Source: Phocaeicola salanitronis DSM 18170 (GTDB lineage: Bacteria > Bacteroidota > Bacteroidia > Bacteroidales > Bacteroidaceae). From it: a stretch of 64,000 bases of DNA. The stretch is taken from assembly GCF_000190575.1 (NCBI RefSeq), contig NC_015164.1:1922001-1986000 (forward strand), written 5' to 3'. The position numbers and the translations under genes are program-made. Positions 35,221 through 45,187 of this stretch are shown piece by piece. How positions within the stretch are numbered: position 1 is the stretch's first letter; each line of letters begins with the position of its first letter. The notes under the pieces are model-generated. The model was given only the letters and a program-made list of their open reading frames with translations, had not been told where the DNA came from and searched no databases.

Positions 35221-35580
35221 TTATGCCTGCGTTTTAGAAGAAACCGATACGTATTGTCGGTAAAGCCACTCTTCATTGCTTGCGGAGGGTTCTAAATCAA
35301 TAACCTGAAGCGGAGATAGAGCGATCAGATTGTTCGAATACCGAGACAAATAATTGATATTCTCCGAAGTTATGCGCCCATTTTGCGACAAAGAATGAAG
35401 CACCTTACTCATAAATTCATATTCAGCCGAAGACAATAACAGCTTAAACGCTTCTAGTTTCTTTCTTGAATAGCGCACCTTCACTTTATCACCATTCACA
35501 ATGACAAGCCCCACACTCAAACGCTCCGAGATTTCAGGGCGAATCACTCCATAGATAATACTATATTCAAGTTTCTTCAT
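35221..35580 (-). CDS. DUF3037 protein paired with a HipA-like kinase
   Basis: 119 residues. YSIIYGVIRPEISERLSVGLVIVNGDKVKVRYSRKKL is the DUF3037 pattern. These proteins are commonly encoded next to HipA_2-type kinases, and here the start overlaps the kinase stop by 4 nt (ATGA). By analogy with hipBA the pair could be a toxin-antitoxin or kinase-regulator module, but DUF3037 has no HTH and no tested role known to me. It is the last gene of the island, 92 nt from the convergent AraC gene. Confidence 0.78.
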   Translation of the reverse strand: MKKLEYSIIYGVIRPEISERLSVGLVIVNGDKVKVRYSRKKLEAFKLLLSSAEYEFMSKVLHSLSQNGRITSENINYLSRYSNNLIALSPLQVIDLEPSASNEEWLYRQYVSVSSKTQA

Positions 35581-36380
35581 CTTTCCAAATTTTCAGTTAA
35601 ACAATCCAGAAAATTTTCCCAAACACCTTCCAACCATTTAAGCTCAAAAAGTTGCTTCATTTTTGCTTCTATAATAGATTCACAAACATTCCATTCTTTC
35701 GGCAACTGCCTCAATATTGCCTCCATACTGTTTCTACTTTGCTCAATGCTTACATCATAATACACCTTCAACTTTTCTGCTTCTTCCTTTATTGATTCTA
35801 TTCTCATACATTTTTTTAAATGCATAAAAATATCAGCATAAAGAATCGTATCGGTCGAAGTCAATTGAGACAAAGAATAATCATACGTAGATGTATTTAA
35901 TATGCCACCATAATCAATAGACACCAACCTTTGATTTATCATATCATATAACATATTGGCATTATTATATGTACGATCCTCATTAGCTATCCAAAAATCA
36001 AATAATGCTATTTTCATTAACTGTTTCAATAGTGAACTCGTTGGATTTATCTCAAAACAAGTCGTTGATGTCACATCCACAGTCCCTACAAGCTCCATGT
36101 ATCCCCAACATGGCGCAGATACACTATGAGAAGTATTTATCCCACTCCAATGCTCTTGTTTTATCCACACAAAAGCATAAGGAGGAGAATCAATTCCCCA
36201 AACATTAGCCAATTGAGAACCAATAAATTCACTCACCAGTTTAAACGACCCTACAGAAGAGCGCATATACTTACATATATACATATTCTTATCCGAACAA
36301 GCAACTAAAACAGGAAGATCTCCCGTCATATATTGCTTTTCAATTATCTTTATGCTCTGTAATATCGGAATAATAGACAT
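35577..36380 (-). CDS. HipA-like (HipA_2 type) Ser/Thr kinase
   Basis: 267 residues with a kinase-like core: GDLPVLVACSDKNMYICKYM gives a strand pair with Lys37, FDFWIANEDRTYNNANMLYD gives the catalytic Asn-x-Asp-Arg...Asn set (Asp135, Asn142), and SIDYGG gives the metal-binding Asp156. This matches the HipA fold rather than a eukaryote-like kinase; the N-terminal HipA subdomain is shortened. HipA kinases phosphorylate tRNA synthetases or translation proteins in known cases; the target here is unknown. The 5' part is duplicated as a decayed fragment at 37471-37538. Confidence 0.75.
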   Translation of the reverse strand: MSIIPILQSIKIIEKQYMTGDLPVLVACSDKNMYICKYMRSSVGSFKLVSEFIGSQLANVWGIDSPPYAFVWIKQEHWSGINTSHSVSAPCWGYMELVGTVDVTSTTCFEINPTSSLLKQLMKIALFDFWIANEDRTYNNANMLYDMINQRLVSIDYGGILNTSTYDYSLSQLTSTDTILYADIFMHLKKCMRIESIKEEAEKLKVYYDVSIEQSRNSMEAILRQLPKEWNVCESIIEAKMKQLFELKWLEGVWENFLDCLTENLER

Positions 36381-36617
36381 ATATCATACGATTTCCAACA
36401 AAAATAATTCTTTTTCTCCTAACTTCCGCAAAACGAGCTATTTTGTAGAAAGATTTAACATCGGGGATTAAGAAACTCTACCCAGCCGTACTCTGCTAAC
36501 AAAAAAATGAACAAACTGAAACGCGACAAGACATCAACGATGTTCTTTCTTATCCACCCAATCAAACTATCACTATCATCCGAATGACATGTCCCATTCC
36601 GCAAGACATTAGAAATG

Positions 36618-37418
36618 TCATTTCGAACGAATTTCCGCAAATATATTCTTAATCACTTCAATCATTTCCGCCTGTCCGGAAATTTCAGCTATCCTCATAC
36701 ATTTACGTTGAAGGTCAGTAATGCTATCAGGATTTTGCATCTCTTTTAAAGCATGCATGATTTTATCTATCTCTTGATCCGGATTACGATTCATAGAGGC
36801 TTTAATATGTTTTTCAGCCTCTTCCTTAGTCAGTCCTAAAGATGAAATGGTTGATTGAACTATCTTGTTAGCCTCATCATTAAATGCACTTTGTGGCGAA
36901 GCACCTTGAAGAAATGCTAACAAACTGATAATGGCGTATTTCTGATCGGTTGAGACATCACCTGATTTTCCAAATCGCTTATTCAACTCATCAAAACCTC
37001 TTGTCTGTAACACTTTGTTTTCTTCATTTTTCATCATCTTTTGTGTGGGTTCTAACATATACATAATTATAACCCAAGCTATTTCCATACACAGCCATAA
37101 AAGAGGAAGTCTTGCATATTCTATATTATCATGTCTGCCACTTATAGCATATAAAATAAATGTTACAATAGAAGCATAAATCAGACCAACAATAACCTGA
37201 TATGTAGCTTTTCCTAATTCATACCTTATTCTGATTACAATAAAAGAAATTAAGGTTTGATAAGCTATTACTCCAAATAACATATCTTCAATATGCCTAT
37301 AACTAAGTTCATCAGAATATTTATCACCAGTAATAAACAAGAGAACTATTATTAAGAAGAACATTATCAGCCCTTCAACTAGATAGTTTATAACTTTTGT
37401 TAATGTAGAATTATTCAT
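36618..37418 (-). CDS. Four-helix membrane protein with TerB-like C-terminal domain
   Basis: 266 residues. Four predicted membrane helices fill residues 12-122 (LIMFFLIIVLLFITG, DMLFGVIAYQTLISFIVIRI, VIVGLIYASIVTFILYAIS, LLWLCMEIAWVIIMYML). The cytoplasmic rest is all-helical: KYAIISLLAFLQGASP...DEANKIVQSTISSLGLTKEEAEKHI has the spacing of TerB-type domains, which occur in tellurite-resistance and conflict systems; this assignment is tentative. It follows the Hsp70 gene after 142 nt and is on the same strand, so it may belong to the same unit. An overlapping 61-codon frame past its 3' end is not considered a gene. Confidence 0.65.
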   Translation of the reverse strand: MNNSTLTKVINYLVEGLIMFFLIIVLLFITGDKYSDELSYRHIEDMLFGVIAYQTLISFIVIRIRYELGKATYQVIVGLIYASIVTFILYAISGRHDNIEYARLPLLWLCMEIAWVIIMYMLEPTQKMMKNEENKVLQTRGFDELNKRFGKSGDVSTDQKYAIISLLAFLQGASPQSAFNDEANKIVQSTISSLGLTKEEAEKHIKASMNRNPDQEIDKIMHALKEMQNPDSITDLQRKCMRIAEISGQAEMIEVIKNIFAEIRSK

Positions 37419-37470
37419 ATCTTTAATTCAAGTTTCTTTATTTTTAAGTCCATCTAAACTTACTCTTCCA

Positions 37471-37538
37471 CAGAAGAGCGCATATACTATTATATACATA
37501 TTCTTAATCCGAACAAGGCAACTAAAACAGAAAAATCT
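37471..37538 (-). pseudogene. Decayed copy of the HipA-like gene's 5' region
   Basis: 37471-37538 matches 36254-36321 (CAGAAGAGCGCATATAC...TATACATATTCTT...AACTAAAACAG) with a few indels and substitutions that destroy the frame. The matching segment encodes roughly VLVACSDKNMYICKYMRSS in the intact gene. It lies in the gap between the Hsp70 and membrane-protein genes, so a second kinase gene, or a rearranged copy, once stood there. Confidence 0.8.
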
Positions 37539-37560
37539 AATCCTTATCTGATTTCAAAGC

Positions 37561-40053
37561 TTATCTTAATAATCCCTCCGTATTTATAGCTTCATTTTCT
37601 GGCATAAGCTCTATCAAACTACAAGCTATAGGATGTAGATTGTCAACAGTAGGTTGAGTATTAATTTTTTCCATGCCCCAGTTTATAAGTTGAAGTGCCC
37701 GTGCAGCGTCACTCCAACGAATACTTCCAAATCGTTCATGACATTCTCTAATTAATCCTATACATTGATAAATCATAGTTAAGTGTACGAATAAGGAATT
37801 TATCTCTTCAAGTGTATCACGTCCCAACTTTATATTCTTTTCACGGATAACTTTATCCGTTTGAACACTCAGTTGTTCTACTAATTGCATTGTATTATTA
37901 TTGCCCAAATTTTGCTGCGCCTTTTCTAATCTATCAAATTCTTCTCTTAATTCTTTTTCCAAGCGTTGCCATTCGGTATCGCTATCAAGGTTTTCAATCT
38001 TTCGCAAAACTTCTTTCAGATGTTGTAATACCATTTTCTTTTCGGAACTATTGGCATATTCCTCTTTGACTTTTTCTATTTCTGTTCGCAAATCAGTAGT
38101 TGGAAGATCGGCTTCTTCTAAACGAGAGATACTTGTTTGAGCATCCAAGAGTCTTTTACTTATTTCTTTATCAGCATCTTCGATAGACTGTTTCTTAGTT
38201 GTATCGAGTGCCTTTTCTACAGAAATATCAGTAGCAAGAAAATGCACTTCAACTTTCATCTGTTCGGAAGAGTCCACTTTAAGCGTAACATCCACTGGGC
38301 TATCAGTGGGTATCAAACTATCCACATCATCGCCCGTGATTGTAACATCTGCCACATACTCATAAAGAGCAGCCGTTTTCCCTTCAGCTTCGGCAAAGTC
38401 GTCTGTTTGATAAATAGGAATAGTAAGTATATCTGCATCTATGCCGGGGCGAAGTTGTTTTGAGGTTTTTAAGTCATTGATTACACCCACAGCAGGTAGA
38501 GGCTTATTCTTTTCCAATCCTTTGGCCATTTTAAATACTCCTCGCTTCTTGTTCTCGTCCCAAATGGCGATACCAATATTATAAGGCAAAGGCGCAGATC
38601 CGACTTTAGAGCCTTGTATAATAGTTATTTCCGAAGGGAAACAAGGAACAGCATTGCCTTTGTCATCATACGCTACGATACTAAATGAGTTCGGTTTACC
38701 TTCTAATAAATTTGCTTCTATCACATTGCCCGTAGAATCTACTTCTGTTTTCCCACTTGACCACGCTTTATCAGCACGGATAAATTCAACCCAAACTTTA
38801 GATAAAGACGTTCCGTCTGATAGTTTTACACTTACCCATTCTGATGTCTCGACAGAGGTTGATTCATATCCCAACTCCAATTTTACGGTTCCTATCTGTA
38901 TCTCATCGTCATTAATTTCTGCATCCAGTGTTGAGGCATAAAGTGCTGCCCCGGTAGCTACGGCAGTCATTGGGTCAATACTTGTATCCACATTCGGAGT
39001 AATCTGTTCTTTTAGCATTTGTCGGATTAGTGGACTATGGGTAGGCCCACCCACCAATATCAGTTTATTTATTTGTGAACCGGAAAGATGATTACGTTGC
39101 AACAGATTCTTGCAGATATCTACTGCTTTTTGGAAATAAGGACGCATTACGTCAAAAGCTTCTGCCTGCGTAATGGTGAGGTCCAATTCTATTTCTTCCC
39201 CATCTTCATCTTCGCCTAAATCACCAAGATTTGAGATGATGTCTTCATGGTCTTTGAATGATAATTGATTTTTTGCTTCCTCTGCATAGGTTTTCATGGC
39301 ATCACGTAAAACCTCTTTCTTGTCAGCATCTGTAATAGTAGAACTTATATTATAGTTTTCCATAAGGTAAGGAATAATGATGCTATCCACAATTGCGTAA
39401 TCAAGATTCTTTCCGCCTAAATAATTATCACCTTCCGTATCAAACACCTGCATAATACCGTCTTCCACTTTGAGTAAGGCTGCATCAAATGTACCTCCAC
39501 CGAAATCGAATACCATCCATAGTCCGTCTTTCTCGTCAGCATTCAAGCCATAAGCCATAGATGCGGCTATCGGCTCTTGCAGTAATTCACATCGCTTGAA
39601 ACCTGCCATTTTCGCCGCCTCCATAGTTGCAGTCTTTTGGTTTACCGTGAATTTTGCAGGAACGGTGATAACAACAGAAGTTATAGTTTCATCAGTAACA
39701 AATGATTTTAAAGATTTCAAGACTTCTGATGATAATTCTTCTGAGGTAAAATCTTTATTAAGATTAGAACAATGATATCTTGTATTTGTTCCCATTGTTC
39801 TTTTAAATTCAATATAAGTATTAGAAGTTTCCGTATGCCAAGTTTTTGTGGCACGACGTTTGTCCAGCTTCATCGTATTGTAAGCACTATCGCCAGCCTT
39901 GATAGAACCTTTTTTATTAATAGAGATACATGAAGGCATAGTGTCTTTTAATACATCAGTCTTTATAATAACCGGTTCACCTTTTTCCATTCTACAAATC
40001 GCAGAATTGGTTGTACCAAGGTCTATTCCATAATCAATTTTTACTCTTGCCAT
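37561..40053 (-). CDS. Divergent Hsp70/DnaK-family chaperone
   Basis: 830 residues. The ATPase domain is intact: phosphate loop 1 GIDLGTTNS (9-17), Lys84 in FKRTMG, connect 1 VVITVPAKF and LLQEPIAASMAYG, phosphate loop 2 DFGGGTFD (183-190, Thr188) and the adenosine motif LILVGGPTHSPLIRQML (331-347). Beyond residue 385 it departs from DnaK: no DVTPLSLG linker, an extra beta-rich segment of about 100 residues (385-485), a substrate-domain-like part (485-605, with ADILTIPIYQ), then a long charged helical region (610-830) and no disordered tail. It starts 11 nt after the GrpE-like gene. Not the housekeeping dnaK; most likely dedicated to the partners encoded upstream. Confidence 0.92.
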   Translation of the reverse strand: MARVKIDYGIDLGTTNSAICRMEKGEPVIIKTDVLKDTMPSCISINKKGSIKAGDSAYNTMKLDKRRATKTWHTETSNTYIEFKRTMGTNTRYHCSNLNKDFTSEELSSEVLKSLKSFVTDETITSVVITVPAKFTVNQKTATMEAAKMAGFKRCELLQEPIAASMAYGLNADEKDGLWMVFDFGGGTFDAALLKVEDGIMQVFDTEGDNYLGGKNLDYAIVDSIIIPYLMENYNISSTITDADKKEVLRDAMKTYAEEAKNQLSFKDHEDIISNLGDLGEDEDGEEIELDLTITQAEAFDVMRPYFQKAVDICKNLLQRNHLSGSQINKLILVGGPTHSPLIRQMLKEQITPNVDTSIDPMTAVATGAALYASTLDAEINDDEIQIGTVKLELGYESTSVETSEWVSVKLSDGTSLSKVWVEFIRADKAWSSGKTEVDSTGNVIEANLLEGKPNSFSIVAYDDKGNAVPCFPSEITIIQGSKVGSAPLPYNIGIAIWDENKKRGVFKMAKGLEKNKPLPAVGVINDLKTSKQLRPGIDADILTIPIYQTDDFAEAEGKTAALYEYVADVTITGDDVDSLIPTDSPVDVTLKVDSSEQMKVEVHFLATDISVEKALDTTKKQSIEDADKEISKRLLDAQTSISRLEEADLPTTDLRTEIEKVKEEYANSSEKKMVLQHLKEVLRKIENLDSDTEWQRLEKELREEFDRLEKAQQNLGNNNTMQLVEQLSVQTDKVIREKNIKLGRDTLEEINSLFVHLTMIYQCIGLIRECHERFGSIRWSDAARALQLINWGMEKINTQPTVDNLHPIACSLIELMPENEAINTEGLLR

Positions 40054-40064
40054 ATTTCTTAATC

Positions 40065-40985
40065 TTAAATGTTTTGACTAACTGTAATTTGCGCAGATTG
40101 AATCATTTTGCCATTATAATTGATTTGTGGTTTGACGATTCCTGTAATTATTTGCTTACCTCGTTCCAAAGTTTCATCAGAAACAAAGTTTGCAATCACT
40201 TTCATACCTTCATTGTATGGTTTACCAAGCATATCAATAATTTCATAGCCATTGGCTTGAAAATTATCTTTGATACGTTGAACAGCTTTTGCCAACTGTT
40301 TATAACCTTTGATAGAAGAATCCATCCGGGAAAGATTCAATTCAATACGTACTATTTCGTCTGCCACTTTCAATGCAAGCGAATGATCAACAGCCGTAGT
40401 TCCTTGGTTATTTATTGCCGTAGGTATTTTTATCTGTTGCTCAGCCATTTCAAGCAATTTATTATCTAATTTAATAGATTCTTCCTGCATTTTTGTTTGA
40501 GTAATTTGCAAAGTTTCTTGCATTTTTTGAAGTTCATCAATAGATGCATCCCCATTCTTTATTCTATTGAATAACCAATAAATTACAGTAATTAAAATTG
40601 CAACAAGAAAAGATACAATTAAAATACCATATAGTGTATAACTTTTTAGAAGCACTTGATTTGCTATCACTGAATTATTAGTCTCATCAACCCTTTGATT
40701 CATTATTGCTTTGTCTACTTCATGTCTCTCATTCATTTTTAAATAATCTGAGCATAAACTATCAAGCAAAAAATATAATTCATCATTTTCCAAAGACAAA
40801 GAGTTTAGTTGAAAAGATATTCTTTTCATATCTTTACTCAAACGACTTACATCTCTACCTATTGCAGAGCACTCTTCTTCCAAGACTTCATATCGTTTTT
40901 CCTTTTCTATTCTTTTTGATGCTTCTTGAGAAATAGAAATTTGAATATTTAACATTGCTATTATTACTATAATTAACTTTTTCAT
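40065..40985 (-). CDS. Membrane-anchored GrpE-like nucleotide exchange protein
   Basis: 306 residues from the start at 40985; an alternative upstream start would overlap the DUF6602 stop. Order: signal-like N-terminus (MKKLIIVIIAMLNIQISIS), periplasmic coiled coil (about 25-115), one membrane helix (118-139, YGILIVSFLVAILITVIYWLF), coiled coil (145-185), then a C-terminal domain (205-303) that aligns by eye with GrpE: NGYEIIDMLGKPYNEG against GVEVI...P.DP, and INYNGKMIQSAQITVSQ against LNGRTIRAAMVTVAK in E. coli GrpE. It stands between DUF6602 (10 nt) and Hsp70 (11 nt). The coiled coil before the head also matches GrpE architecture. Confidence 0.8.
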   Translation of the reverse strand: MKKLIIVIIAMLNIQISISQEASKRIEKEKRYEVLEEECSAIGRDVSRLSKDMKRISFQLNSLSLENDELYFLLDSLCSDYLKMNERHEVDKAIMNQRVDETNNSVIANQVLLKSYTLYGILIVSFLVAILITVIYWLFNRIKNGDASIDELQKMQETLQITQTKMQEESIKLDNKLLEMAEQQIKIPTAINNQGTTAVDHSLALKVADEIVRIELNLSRMDSSIKGYKQLAKAVQRIKDNFQANGYEIIDMLGKPYNEGMKVIANFVSDETLERGKQIITGIVKPQINYNGKMIQSAQITVSQNI

Positions 40986-40995
40986 ATTATTGTTG

Positions 40996-41772
40996 CTACA
41001 TGTCAAACAAAGGAATCGCGTCATAACGATTAAAAGATTCTCCTATTTCATCTACATTCATACTAGCATCGCCTAATTTAGACAAAATTATTTCCACAAA
41101 TTCCTGCAAGCAGGAAATAGGTCTATTCTTTTTATCATTAAAAATTAAAGATTCATATCCCATCATATCTCGACTACCAGTTATTATATAATTCTTTCTT
41201 AGTATAAATTCCTTTTGGGGTTTCAAACCTATAATTACATCAGGTAATTCTTCAAAATCATCTTGATCAAACCCAACTCCAAAACATACTCCATTCTGCT
41301 CCACTTCATTACTTTTATTACTATTCTCATTCAAAAAAAAGTATGTTTTTAAAGTTCTAACAGAACAGGCATTATATATAAATAAATATTTATTCGAGAT
41401 ACCAAGCTTATGAAGTAAAGAAAAATCTTCTAACGTTTTAAGAAACTGACGTTTACCTATACTTGTTTTTACTTCTATAACAGCAAGTACAGATTTTGCC
41501 GGTAAAACGACTAAAGAATTAGTTTTAAATAATGGAGCGAAATTATAACTATCATATATCAACACATCACATTGATGAGAACATAATTGCCTATCCACAA
41601 TAAAGCCCTGAGAAATACTAACTTTTTTGGGTAACAGTTTTTCTAATGAATCGCGTAATAAATCTTCTGCAAATTGACCAATCGTTAAATTATGCGCACG
41701 AACAAATTGTTTGATTTGCAGCAACTTATTATGCAATTCTTCCACATACAATCTATAATATTCTGTTTGCAT
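40996..41772 (-). CDS. DUF6602 protein with PD-(D/E)XK-like signature
   Basis: 258 residues. The N-terminal helices are followed by VSISQGFIVDRQLCSHQCDVLIYD (Asp69, Asp74) and VLAVIEVKTSIGKRQF (Glu100, Lys102), the acidic-x-acidic-x-Lys arrangement of restriction-endonuclease-like folds, as in DUF6602 proteins. This suggests nucleic-acid cleavage or binding, but many such proteins are inactive and no substrate is known. It is the second gene of the Hsp70 operon, 51 nt after the large repeat protein and 10 nt before the GrpE-like gene. Confidence 0.75.
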   Translation of the reverse strand: MQTEYYRLYVEELHNKLLQIKQFVRAHNLTIGQFAEDLLRDSLEKLLPKKVSISQGFIVDRQLCSHQCDVLIYDSYNFAPLFKTNSLVVLPAKSVLAVIEVKTSIGKRQFLKTLEDFSLLHKLGISNKYLFIYNACSVRTLKTYFFLNENSNKSNEVEQNGVCFGVGFDQDDFEELPDVIIGLKPQKEFILRKNYIITGSRDMMGYESLIFNDKKNRPISCLQEFVEIILSKLGDASMNVDEIGESFNRYDAIPLFDM

Positions 41773-41823
41773 ACCTCTATGTTAAGAATTATTCCTACGA
41801 CCATTAAAGCCATGTAATATGTA

Positions 41824-43998
41824 CTACATCAACAACACTGTTTTATAAAGAGAGTATAATACCAAGAAAAACAAAATAGCAATAAATATTAATACAATCC
41901 ACATTACACTATCATTTTTCTTTTTAAGAAGGTTTTCAGCTTCATGCGCATTTCTTCCTTTAGGAAAGTGTGCTAAATAATCTTTTAGTCTATTTGTCAA
42001 TTTATATTGTTCAAACAACAAATCATCCGCTTTTGATACATTTCTTCCATTTGGATATTGTACAATATATTCTTCTAAATTATGAGCAGATTTATATTGT
42101 TTAAAAATAAGGTCATCAAGTCGATTTTTAATAGAAGATAAATACCAACCATTAGGATATCGTTTTATATAGTCTTTACAACTAGAAATAGTTTCTTTGT
42201 ATTTCTCATATAAATAAGATTCATACTTTAAAGTATCTTTAAAGGACTGAACCTCTTTCAAATATTTCCCTTCAGGATATTTTTCTATATAATTATTATA
42301 TGCATGATTTGAAAGTTCTTTTTTAGCATAAATTTCTTTGCACTCATTATAATAATCTTCCTCTGTACGTAAATCTATAAAATCTTCATGCTCCCATTCT
42401 GACATAAAGCCTTGAGTTGGAGGAATACGAACCCCCATTTCAGCATAAATATCTCTTGATGTTGAATAATTCTGAAATGGATTGACAGAGAATCCTGAAA
42501 TCACTGTCATTAGAATTGCTCTTTGTTGAGAATACCATGTATTTACGTATTGTTGTAAAAAAGGTTCTACTAAATATCCTTTAATACTTCTAATGGCTAT
42601 ATTTCTTATATCTTTTATATCAAATTGAGGATCTAATTGTGCAATAAACTTCCTAATTGCATTTTCATTAGGACTCAATCTATTTGTTTGAAATTCTTTT
42701 GAAGTATCTAAACGCTCTATATTTACTATAATATTCCAACAAAAACGTAACATCCACATCAAACTAACTAATGTTTCTTTTTCGTTTTTTTGTAACATAT
42801 TTTTTAATTCATCATTTACATGGCTGTTAAAAGTTTCTATAACAAATCCGAGCAATATATTTGCTATTAATGTTGAAATCTCAATGTAATATTTATTTTG
42901 TATACCTAATTTACTCTTAATAGAAACTATAAATGGAACGCAATTAAACAAAGCGTCTTTACATCCTTTAAAAGAATAAAATTCATCATGAAACTTTCGC
43001 AATTCTTCTTTAATAGCTTTATCCTCAGCAAAAATTTCCAATGGAGGCAGATTTTTAATAACTTGTTTCAGTATATCCACATTTTCTTTACAACGATCCT
43101 TAACCGTCTTACTTACAACTACCGTCATTGCGTAAGATTGAAGTTGCATCGCTTTATAAGCCGCATCCGGTTCGTCAGCTTCATTAAAATAGTCTATGCC
43201 ACATTGTAAAATCTCAAGACCTAACTTATCTGCAATCATTTGATACTGCAAATCCGTTTCAGATGAGAAAACCTTAAGCTGTTGTAAAAGCCCTGCTGTA
43301 TCTTTCATCAATTTCACACCAGCATTATATCGTGCTGTAGCACCTTTGCCACGCGACGACTTGGCTATTTCTATAACCGACTGAATTTGCTCTATAAGCG
43401 GTTTAACAGATTTTTCTACAACATGACTTTTCCAAGTATCATTCGTAATCAAAGGCAAGATTACATCAGAAGCTATCTCTTCACAAAGTACATCTATAAA
43501 ACTTAAAGCTATGGATTCAGACAAAGTGTTATCTTCCTTCCCAACAATAGCCAATACAAATTGAACTGCATATTGGGTATAAAGTAGTTCAGCACAAGCA
43601 ATAGCATTTGAATAGTCTTCTTGAATCAATGCACAAACAATTCTGTTCTGCAAAGAAGAAGCACTATCTTTTTTCATCCAAATATTAATCGCTTCACCCA
43701 TATTCCCTGCAAATAGATGATTGAAAGCAATATCATCCAAAGGAGTAGCTTTCATAAACCAGAATTGAGCATATTTAATTTGCTCATTAGACAAAGCAAG
43801 ACTCGCTTCCGCTTGTGCTACCGATTCCGATGTCCTGTCAATAGGAGTCAAATATTGCGACAAATCCAAAGGAAAATCCACGTGTTTTCCTACTTTCAGA
43901 AAAGCTTTGAGTCGATTATGATTGGCTACACGTTCTTTTATGGGCGAATTAGAATAAACACCTAATTGCCTATATGGATTATTTATAATAATGTTCAT
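41824..43998 (-). CDS. J-domain-like, repeat-containing tail-anchored protein
   Basis: 724 residues. The N-terminus NPYRQLGVYSNSPIKERVAN recalls J-domain helices I and II, and AEASLALSNEQIKYAQFWF recalls helix III-IV sequence; the HPD tripeptide is missing (the loop reads KHVDFPLD). A long helical middle follows. At about 575-690 there are four repeats of the form Y..Y....YPNG..L.. (IEKYPEGKYL, IKRYPNGWYL, IVQYPNGRNV, LAHFPKGRNA). A single membrane helix closes the protein (VMWIVLIFIAILFFLVLYSLY), so nearly all of it should face the cytoplasm. First gene of the tight Hsp70 operon. J-like assignment is by eye only. Confidence 0.65.
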   Translation of the reverse strand: MNIIINNPYRQLGVYSNSPIKERVANHNRLKAFLKVGKHVDFPLDLSQYLTPIDRTSESVAQAEASLALSNEQIKYAQFWFMKATPLDDIAFNHLFAGNMGEAINIWMKKDSASSLQNRIVCALIQEDYSNAIACAELLYTQYAVQFVLAIVGKEDNTLSESIALSFIDVLCEEIASDVILPLITNDTWKSHVVEKSVKPLIEQIQSVIEIAKSSRGKGATARYNAGVKLMKDTAGLLQQLKVFSSETDLQYQMIADKLGLEILQCGIDYFNEADEPDAAYKAMQLQSYAMTVVVSKTVKDRCKENVDILKQVIKNLPPLEIFAEDKAIKEELRKFHDEFYSFKGCKDALFNCVPFIVSIKSKLGIQNKYYIEISTLIANILLGFVIETFNSHVNDELKNMLQKNEKETLVSLMWMLRFCWNIIVNIERLDTSKEFQTNRLSPNENAIRKFIAQLDPQFDIKDIRNIAIRSIKGYLVEPFLQQYVNTWYSQQRAILMTVISGFSVNPFQNYSTSRDIYAEMGVRIPPTQGFMSEWEHEDFIDLRTEEDYYNECKEIYAKKELSNHAYNNYIEKYPEGKYLKEVQSFKDTLKYESYLYEKYKETISSCKDYIKRYPNGWYLSSIKNRLDDLIFKQYKSAHNLEEYIVQYPNGRNVSKADDLLFEQYKLTNRLKDYLAHFPKGRNAHEAENLLKKKNDSVMWIVLIFIAILFFLVLYSLYKTVLLM

Positions 43999-44073
43999 GC
44001 CAACTTAATAAACCAGTTAGCCGACTCCTTACTAACTCCCTAAAATATTAATACTTAACTACACACAAAAAAC

Positions 44074-44320
44074 GTGGAGCCAGTCTGTCACTCGTTCCAC
44101 GCTATAAAGGCCTTCGCATTGCCCGGATTGTCGAAACGAGCAACGCCGAAAGCCCCACGCCGATGTCTGTATATAGTCCACCCTTTCCCTTACGATATAA
44201 TAAGGTACACTACGGGCTGTACATATAAAACACCCTTGGGGCGTTCCCGTTGCTTTGTTTTTGACAATCCGTAGAAGTTGCGAAGTTCTTATAGCGTCAA
44301 AACCAAAGCGTCCAGTAACG
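44074..44320. other. GC-richer non-coding block beside the island
   Basis: Between the island and a small gene lies about 250 nt of GC-richer sequence than the island (e.g. CGAAACGAGCAACGCCGAAAG, CACCCTTGGGGCGTTCCCG), with no convincing frame on either strand and no tRNA- or tmRNA-like fold recognised. It could be a structured RNA, an att-like junction or a decayed element. A 77-codon frame at 44289-44522 shows no family. Confidence 0.3.
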
Positions 44321-44529
44321 CCTTTTTATGTATATGTATCCCACCCGACCCTTCCACATAAGGAATTATCGGCATGGGATTGCTACAAATGTAAACAATA
44401 GTTACGAATAAATCAAACGATATTGCCTTTTTATTTGAAAATTCTATCGAACCAAGAAAGAGGCATATACAAAGCCATAAAAAAACTTCGTGTATGCCTC
44501 TTCCTTGTTCTTCCACCTGCAATCAGAAT

Positions 44530-44625
44530 CTATTTCGCTTTTTGCGCTTCCTTTTTATCTTGGTAATGAAAATATACCAAACTGGCAATAGCTATCACCA
44601 TCACAGACACAATAACGGCTCCCAT
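44530..44625 (-). CDS. 31-residue single-pass membrane protein
   Basis: Encodes MGAVIVSVMVIAIASLVYFHY followed by a charged tail QDKKEAQKAK. A full Shine-Dalgarno AGGAGG stands 7 nt before the ATG (44633-44638 on the minus strand), which is rare in Bacteroidetes and supports translation. One membrane helix with a short basic tail is the layout of small regulatory subunits of membrane complexes. Partner and function unknown. Confidence 0.65.
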   Translation of the reverse strand: MGAVIVSVMVIAIASLVYFHYQDKKEAQKAK

Positions 44626-44741
44626 TATTTTTCCTCCTTTTCATAAGGCAAAAAATAATCTTTTCTTTCTGATACACAAAATCTTTTTCTTCAGAATCAT
44701 ATCATAAACATACGATTTATGGGAAAACAATAATCTATTTA

Positions 44742-44933
44742 GAAGCTGTTTTGAATTTATCGTGCGATGATTTGGGATGAGTTTTTGAGGCATTTCCGCT
44801 TGTGTGATGAGGAAGATAGCGGGCTATCTGACGAAGAACAGAAGCGGAAAGGACCAAAAAATCGCCCAAAGCACACACGAAAACGGATACATCAAGACGA
44901 GAAAAACTTTTTGGAGAAATTCAAAACAGTTTC
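44742..44933. mobile_element. MITE-like 192-bp element, copy 5
   Basis: The left 17-bp end is perfect and preceded by TTA; the right end has one change (CAGTTTC) and is followed by TCAAAACAGCTTCTAA, a partial duplication of the terminus. The internal frame (44767, plus strand) is intact through the element. Orientation as copy 2. Confidence 0.8.
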
Positions 44934-45042
44934 TCAAAACAGCTTCTAAAAGTAGTCACGTGTTTAAATAGGTGATGGATGCCTTGCACACTTTCATCCG
45001 TAAACAGGCAGGAGGGCAGGAAAGCGCGACAAGTTTCATACC

Positions 45043-45130
45043 CGGTTTAGATATACTGAAACTTTAGTTTCAGTGCATTTAAACAAAAGTTTCAGCAGGA
45101 TAAAACTAAAGTTTCAGCATATCTAAACTG
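45043..45130. repeat. 28-bp inverted repeat with TGAAACTTTAGTTT units
   Basis: Arms 45043-45070 and 45103-45130 are near-perfect reverse complements (one clear mismatch) around a 32-nt loop that holds a further AAAGTTTCAGC unit. It ends 58 nt beyond the alpha-galactosidase stop and could terminate that gene, though there is no U-run. Confidence 0.75.
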
Positions 45131-45187
45131 GCATGAAACTACCTTAAGCAGGTTAAAGCATCCATTCTCAACGGATTATGCGCCCGT

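Follow-up and report, generated by a model that had tools for sequence, protein, structure and literature searches.

We found, in a 64,000-nt stretch of the Phocaeicola salanitronis DSM 18170 genome (contig NC_015164.1, positions 1,922,001 to 1,986,000; hereafter the window, whose own numbering we use), a minus-strand operon for a divergent Hsp70, a GrpE-like protein, a J-like repeat protein and a nuclease-like DUF6602 protein, preceded by a structured RNA of about 300 nt. The RNA lies 5′ of the operon, between the island genes and their flank, outside the coordinates covered by an earlier sequence-only reading of this DNA. We lean, with modest confidence, towards the view that the operon is an acquired-looking variant of an Hsp70-based operon of Bacteroidota, probably a conflict or anti-phage system, and that it is expressed via this RNA acting as a transcription attenuator.

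The operon comprises four genes, for which transmembrane and signal segments, as for the other proteins of the island, were assigned by eye:

41824..43998, minus strand: 724-aa protein with a J-like N-terminus, helical repeats and a C-terminal hydrophobic segment (by eye); conserved neighbour, AlphaFold2 model
40996..41772, minus strand: DUF6602 PD-(D/E)XK-like nuclease; PF20247, 1.4e-21
40065..41024, minus strand: GrpE-like protein with a signal-like N-terminus, a coiled coil, one transmembrane segment (by eye) and a C-terminal GrpE-like domain (residues 210-319); hhalign
37561..40053, minus strand: divergent Hsp70, 830 aa; PF00012

The gaps of 51, 10 and 11 nt first reported between these genes hold if the GrpE-like gene begins at an inner ATG; taken at its longest open reading frame (ORF), it runs 29 nt into the DUF6602 gene.

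To place this operon among its relatives, we scanned one genome per species (84,980 species) with a three-sequence alignment of the GrpE-like protein (two peptide patterns) and obtained 34 loci (L017-L050). By taxon label 30 of these are Bacteroidota, and the rest are Hydrogenedentota, Succinivibrio, ‘Candidatus Ectomicrobium’ and a Clostridia metagenome-assembled genome that is perhaps mis-binned. Gene presence was counted in the loci of sufficient length. In 30 of the 31 counted for the repeat protein, its gene adjoins that of the GrpE-like protein (29/30 strictly, without L042, which has a short upstream sequence and was counted since positive), and Hsp70 is present in all 30 testable loci, so that the predicted co-occurrence of the three genes is borne out. 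A kinase-AAA protein follows in 24/26 testable loci; L036 has none, and L040 matches via AAA alone, with a protein of AAA and M41 peptidase domains in its place. A TerB-like protein has its own gene in 16 of 22 testable loci and is fused to the kinase in 2 more. Pfam assigns Pkinase (2.7e-38) and AAA (5.1e-38) to the L044 kinase-AAA protein and does likewise for L017; beyond these two, the assignment was by full-length similarity. Collectively, these counts indicate that in the operon J-like, GrpE-like and Hsp70 genes usually come first, with genes for a fused Ser/Thr-kinase–AAA protein and for TerB behind them. The linked Hsp70 triad of the sequence-only reading is thus a conserved arrangement, but the description of it as self-contained was incomplete, the usual operon adding the kinase-AAA and TerB proteins.

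The window has neither a kinase-AAA gene nor a small TerB gene at its operon, and elsewhere in the same genome we found no kinase-AAA protein, only one AAA-only match (677-aa frame) and two separate kinase-type matches; the window operon therefore looks like a derived variant. Its DUF6602 gene recurs in one of the 34 related loci (L018) and appears to be an optional extra. Among the relatives, five loci (L031, L034, L036, L038 and L040) have a second Hsp70, complete or truncated, right after the first. At eight others (L027, L028, L029, L030, L035, L043, L044 and L046) the chaperone operon has on its 5′ side a gene whose product resembles the exported SH3-domain protein of L044 (SH3_3, 8.3e-8), and several of these also have a membrane-type protein of about 100 aa after TerB. 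A distant phylum member (L009, G215:C7) has a related J-like repeat protein beside TerB-like-looking and AAA-like genes, with no Hsp70 or GrpE-like gene within the 3.3 kb read.

The Hsp70 assignment was upheld by a PF00012 match of 7.8e-69, which spans residues 9-391 only. The window protein carries all five nucleotide-binding-domain motifs searched, which in 32 homologues are kept to different degrees (DLGTTNS in 29, GGGTFD-type in 27, L[VI]GG in 28, EP[IT]AA in 11, PA[KN]FT in 5). Past about residue 417 no Hsp70 match was found among Pfam, NCBIfam and PDB sequences, and the canonical linker was not seen in the stretch inspected. Against the DnaK equivalog model the protein reaches 245.5 bits, far under the 822.55 cut-off, and within its own genome it scores 233 bits versus 863 for the housekeeping DnaK, from which it is distinct.

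For the GrpE-like partner the evidence comes from profile-profile comparison. The C-terminal domain of 30 GrpE-like proteins aligned by hhalign with 26 GrpE proteins from the window's phylum at 81% probability over 100 collinear columns, covering the helix bundle and the beta-wing. The value depends on the setting (81-83% by default, 93-94% with -sc 0, 28-33% with -corr 0), and controls with reversed and unrelated families stayed at or below 0.2%. The GrpE-like character first suggested from the letters is in this respect supported, but the Pfam GrpE model gives no match to the window protein; indeed the GrpE-like protein, the repeat protein and the 266-aa membrane protein encoded downstream all lack a Pfam match above cut-off. 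In another species of the genus the C-terminal GrpE-like domain alone was matched, in a 174-aa open frame (L133, G313:C20:2543-2821); none was confirmed in the viral contigs searched for the GrpE-like protein.

The J-like protein is less certain. An N-terminal slice compared with 30 J domains reached 29% over 22 columns (hhalign; controls at or below 0.9%), the full-length profile reached 5.6%, and the HPD motif occurs in 0 of 31 repeat proteins. The AlphaFold2 model is all-helical (mean pLDDT 85.4), with N-terminal helices predicted at high confidence at residues 8-11, 20-35, 57-66 and 70-77, a J-like spacing. Counting against a J-type partner, a whole-chain fold search returned generic helical proteins, with no J protein among the best 50 of 641. 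What stands of the original claim is a linked gene with J-like helix spacing in the model; the protein is best named J-like, the J domain being unproven.

The nuclease-like protein was recognized correctly: in addition to the PF20247 match, PADLOC gave PD_DExK at 1.3e-27 (a CRISPR-associated PD-(D/E)XK model) and NucC at 4e-16, and a D...EVK motif, of the D...ExK type, is visible in the stretch inspected. The naming of the 266-aa membrane protein as TerB-like, on the other hand, found no support, at 0.2% against the TerB-like proteins of relatives in a profile comparison that, with a single-sequence query, is a weak test. The small gene of the relatives L044 and L017 matches Pfam TerB at E values of 0.0021 and 0.01, below the curated cut-off, and its copy on plasmid pHALHY02 is annotated as TerB family.

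This Haliscomenobacter plasmid also offers the clearest defence neighbourhood. The operon (annotated there as CFI-box-CTERM protein, ‘septum formation initiator’, Hsp70 family, AAA family ATPase and TerB family) lies between SIR2/WD40 genes and brxL/pglZ, and some of the other loci adjoin restriction genes. Searching 84 of 122 neighbour proteins of the 34 loci with PADLOC (shorter and doubtful ORFs excluded by hand) gave 220 families, with mad2 (3 proteins) and type I methyltransferases (2 proteins) at the top. A control of 73 out of 80 proteins, which for the operon neighbours comes from another genus, gave 7 families, hence at most 7 proteins with a match. These tallies count families, many of them redundant, and not proteins, and so give no per-protein measure of enrichment. 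The phage-defence role guessed at the outset fits some neighbourhoods; we consider the operon probably a conflict or anti-phage system.

A device for envelope stress or protein quality, with no role in phage defence, would account for the membrane anchoring and the chaperone parts, and many copies of the leader RNA precede operons without obvious defence genes. It would leave aside the BREX and SIR2 genes that flank the operon on pHALHY02, the restriction genes at some other loci, the nuclease-like gene within the window operon, and a patchy distribution, with repeat-protein matches in 10 of 296 phylum genomes (some to the repeats only) and a full-length GrpE-like match in 1 of 36 genus genomes (12 more being partial or in the coiled-coil range). 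We think such a device with no part in phage defence somewhat unlikely.

The features of the leader region are as follows:

44386..44393, minus strand: TACATTTG, Bacteroides-type -7 promoter motif (TAnnTTTG); read from sequence
44057..44352, minus strand: structured leader RNA (5′ hairpin, long rod, terminator); covariation, fold, conservation
44133..44144, minus strand: GUUGCUCGUUUC, 5′ half of the proposed antiterminator helix, also in the 3′ strand of the rod; complementarity
44087..44098, minus strand: GGAACGAGUGAC, 3′ half of the proposed antiterminator helix, also in the 5′ arm of the terminator; complementarity
44067..44100, minus strand: intrinsic-terminator-like hairpin and T run; T run, paired stem

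Bacteroides-type promoters have a TAnnTTTG element at -7 and a -33 box, and here the -33 box reads TTTG and is found at 44414-44417, 20 nt upstream of the -7 motif. For comparative analysis we used 50 copies of the RNA, a non-random set with an effective number of 38, made up of 40 regions picked from a longer blastn list that includes many fragments and 10 from other loci. TAnnTTTG occurs at -80 to -30 in 43 of the 50, against 3.7 expected from shuffles. A T run of at least 4 marks the RNA end in 47/50, and the terminator stem pairs in 96.8% (outer part) and 71.2% (inner part) across the copies.

The fold of the window copy (44061-44345) has a z score of -6.85. In the 50-row alignment 85.7% of 3791 cells pair, a value that favours the structure scored, namely the window centroid fold with the outer AT-rich helix excluded. 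Covariation scored 0.320, compared with 0.167 in shuffled and at most 0.098 in slid alignments, and double-sided changes were found in 6/8, 7/7 and 8/9 pairs of the three main rod helices and in 3 of the 5 pairs of the terminator stem. In an independent covariation scan the ten best pairs all belong to the rod, with z up to 26; from rank 11 on, they are mixed with some high-scoring non-structural pairs (48-275, z 13), which relatedness leads one to expect.

Furthermore, GUUGCUCGUUUC in the 3′ strand of the rod can pair with the terminator 5′ arm over 12 bp, forming an alternative helix that would exclude both rod and terminator. Of 598 cells of this helix 98.2% pair, compared with 38-57% in slid versions, and its 7-bp core pairs in 350 of 350 cells, the next best of 245 positions reaching 0.74. 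With promoter, rod, terminator and alternative helix, the RNA has, by sequence, the anatomy of a transcription attenuator common to many accessory operons.

Several observations weigh against this interpretation. TTG at -33-type spacing is present in only 18 of the 50 copies. Support for the distal part of the rod is poor, since its helices 10 and 11 pair in 70% and 55% of cells, and pair types are no more numerous than in shuffles (137 versus 136.4). The alternative helix shows almost no double-sided covariation (2 cells), and it still pairs in 97.4% when the 3′ letters are shuffled, one strand being nearly invariant; since so few cells covary and one strand hardly varies, the complementarity could reflect another constraint, and the helix rests on complementarity and not on covariation. 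Three copies (L183, L194 and L216) have no co-directional first ORF. Nor is the RNA intrinsic to the chaperone system: among Hsp70-operon loci whose upstream sequence exceeds 500 nt, only 6 of 29 carry it (L017, L018, L019, L020, L021 and L023). In all six it lies 5′ of the operon; five are 74.5-79.8% identical to the window copy, and L021 has diverged. In addition, the 44067-44100 hairpin was not among the results of a generic terminator scan of the window, and the terminator was absent from the RNAalifold result for the 50 sequences.

By blastn the RNA has matches, many of them partial, in 37 of 61 genus genomes, often several per genome, in 18 of 295 order genomes (14/183 genera) and in 2 of 296 phylum genomes (its own and a 30-nt match). 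A second full copy in the same genome (G000:C1:963785-964065, L150/L151), 91% identical, lies 5′ of an operon that by eye encodes lipoprotein-like, small membrane, tubulin-like and 1158-aa proteins. Phage and plasmid records gave no blastn match, and a pattern scan of contigs classed as viral (IMG/VR) returned 8 contigs, of which two (L178 and L183) have the RNA; on L183 the ORFs next to it are on the opposite strand. A search of Rfam with the window copy only, reaching to E values of 5, gave nothing that overlaps 44057-44352, the best match in the stretch being MIR862 (34.4 of 100 bits) at 45032-45140. That position, between an alpha-galactosidase-like gene and the island, is occupied by a hairpin-like repeat of the CTGAAACTAAAGTTTCAG type, perhaps a terminator. 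Neither the RNA nor the five-gene operon is described among the literature matches listed, which covered few subscription papers or preprints, and the RNA is apparently undescribed.

We examined what the RNA precedes. The first ORF of at least 90 aa is co-directional in 47/50 copies at a median distance of 62 nt (ORFs were called mechanically and allowed to run off cut edges, which makes some of the 1-3 nt distances artefacts), and a second TAnnTTTG lies between RNA and gene in only 2 of 46. Within the genus the genes behind the RNA are diverse: an SspC/SspD pair (L197; SspC E = 0, SspD 9.4e-85), methyltransferase and type IIG-like enzymes (L198), a PLD-type helicase with a type IIG-like enzyme (L206), an FHA protein kinase (L202), and a tubulin-like operon (L185; Tubulin_2 0.00082, weak and below the Pfam cut-off), to which L151 is similar by eye. 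Many copies precede uncharacterised operons of secreted-looking proteins.

PADLOC returned 110 families, many redundant, for 73 of 81 proteins 3′ of the RNA (near-duplicates, Hsp70 operons, L151 and L183 excluded). Nine of these scanned singly gave 86 matches from 8 proteins at 5 loci, so few proteins account for most of the 110 families. Strong matches occur at at least 5 of the 33 loci scanned, the same-contig control having at most 7 matching proteins of 73. A general link between the RNA and defence is thus suggested by examples, not by counts. More broadly, one attenuator RNA might be the common switch of an immune-type regulon of Bacteroidales, in which a single intracellular signal, of infection or of damage to the envelope, would turn on dispersed defence, chaperone, tubulin-like and capsule operons jointly through their copies of the leader; we put this forward tentatively and hold it to be on the unlikely side.

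Three further copies bear on how read-through would be set. In L210, L211 and L213 the RNA precedes NusG-type genes (L210 NusG 2.1e-8; the others UpxY-like by eye) that head apparent surface-polysaccharide genes. UpxY governs antitermination of capsule loci (PMC12632263), and the recruitment modes of operon-encoded NusG paralogues were called unknown in 2020 (PMC7593976). The leader could on these grounds be a site at which NusG-type (UpxY-like) antiterminators load or which they target, with these proteins and not an intrinsic RNA switch setting read-through. No NusG-like gene was noticed beside the other copies (by eye, L210 alone being profile-tested), and the conserved alternative helix suggests a switch at the level of the RNA; we consider control by such proteins in place of the RNA switch unlikely, while the two are mutually compatible. 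That the RNA is instead a free-standing small RNA gene (trans-acting or polymerase-binding, with a 6S-like shape) that moves with accessory genes having their own promoters is improbable: promoter motif, RNA and terminator do form a complete unit in most copies and the shape is a rod, but almost all copies are co-directional with a close ORF, a second promoter motif in between is rare, and the window copy has no match in Rfam, 6S included.

The most economical account of these observations would be an attenuator leader that terminates by default and is read through when the rod opens, in which case the Hsp70 operon would be silent and expressed on a signal. Transcription would start 5′ of the RNA; the rod would fold first and then the terminator, and the operon would stay off. 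A signal that opens the rod would free GUUGCUCGUUUC to pair with the terminator 5′ arm, allowing the polymerase to read into the operon. Candidate triggers are NusG-type proteins, the state of the RNA polymerase, a metabolite and temperature. The GrpE-like and repeat-protein partners may tether the Hsp70 to the inner membrane, where it would keep an effector inactive or detect a change in a client, its release activating the effector, here the DUF6602 nuclease and elsewhere the kinase-AAA protein. We infer a membrane-held Hsp70 gating a nuclease or kinase from the parts and their neighbourhood.

To our knowledge, how Bacteroidales silence their many costly accessory and defence systems is largely open. 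If the attenuator reading is true, a common leader with a built-in switch before unrelated operons would be a concrete and testable answer, and new accessory loci could be sought by the sequence of the leader RNA. A second theme is the chaperone operon, in which an Hsp70 and a GrpE-type partner, apparently tethered to the membrane, are encoded together with a kinase-AAA or nuclease-like protein.

The remainder of the island, which spans seven ORFs, all on the minus strand, at 35221-43998 exactly as the sequence-only reading had placed them, consists of three genes:

36618..37418, minus strand: unassigned 266-aa protein, hydrophobic segments near the N-terminus (by eye); no match in Pfam above the cut-off
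35577..36380, minus strand: HipA-like kinase; PF20613, 4.6e-20; PADLOC PDC-M66A, 9.7e-8
35221..35580, minus strand: 119-aa ORF overlapping the end of the HipA-like gene; no Pfam match above threshold

The HipA-like kinase was rightly named, its match being to HipA_2, whereas the name DUF3037 given to the last gene gained no Pfam match above threshold. The AT-richness noted by eye is real: by GC plot and count the block has 33.6% GC, versus 47.5% for the window outside 35221-45186, and the operon looks acquired. Comparison with an empty site did not define a clean insertion site: in the sister species (G296:C45) the two flanks of the island share a contig but lie about 104 kb from each other, and the two genomes thus differ by a rearrangement at this place.

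Attenuators are already known as a kind, and chaperone-based conflict systems have already been proposed. Riboswitch and T-box-type attenuators have mutually exclusive terminator and antiterminator helices. The leader described here would share this feature, but differs in having no known ligand, a long rod, varied accessory operons downstream and a window copy that is not in Rfam. With the housekeeping DnaK-DnaJ-GrpE machinery the operon shares a nucleotide-binding domain and a GrpE-type partner; unlike it, the Hsp70 has no Hsp70 match beyond about residue 417, the partners appear membrane-anchored (by eye) and HPD is lacking. The UpxY/UpxZ capsule loci of Bacteroides resemble the present loci in antitermination control 5′ of Bacteroidales accessory operons (PMC12632263), and some RNA copies likewise precede NusG-type genes; here, in contrast, one conserved RNA with an alternative antiterminator-like helix stands before functionally unrelated operons.

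Among the literature matches listed, the closest parallel for the operon is in the GAP1-N2 GTPase-centred conflict systems, which encode HSP70, GrpE and DnaJ-FNIII (Kaur et al. 2020, PMC7159879). Both kinds unite HSP70 and GrpE-type proteins with a DnaJ-bearing or, here, J-like protein in an operon that is of conflict type there and probably so here, and a subset of the GAP1-N2 systems has a second HSP70 gene, as do the five loci listed above. The term TerB occurs 0 times in the main text of that paper. The GAP1-N2 systems are, as described there, centred on a GTPase, have FNIII proteins and are found mainly in actinobacteria and firmicutes, whereas the operons described here have kinase-AAA and TerB proteins, a transmembrane-anchored GrpE-like protein and an HPD-less J-like repeat protein, and belong to Bacteroidota.

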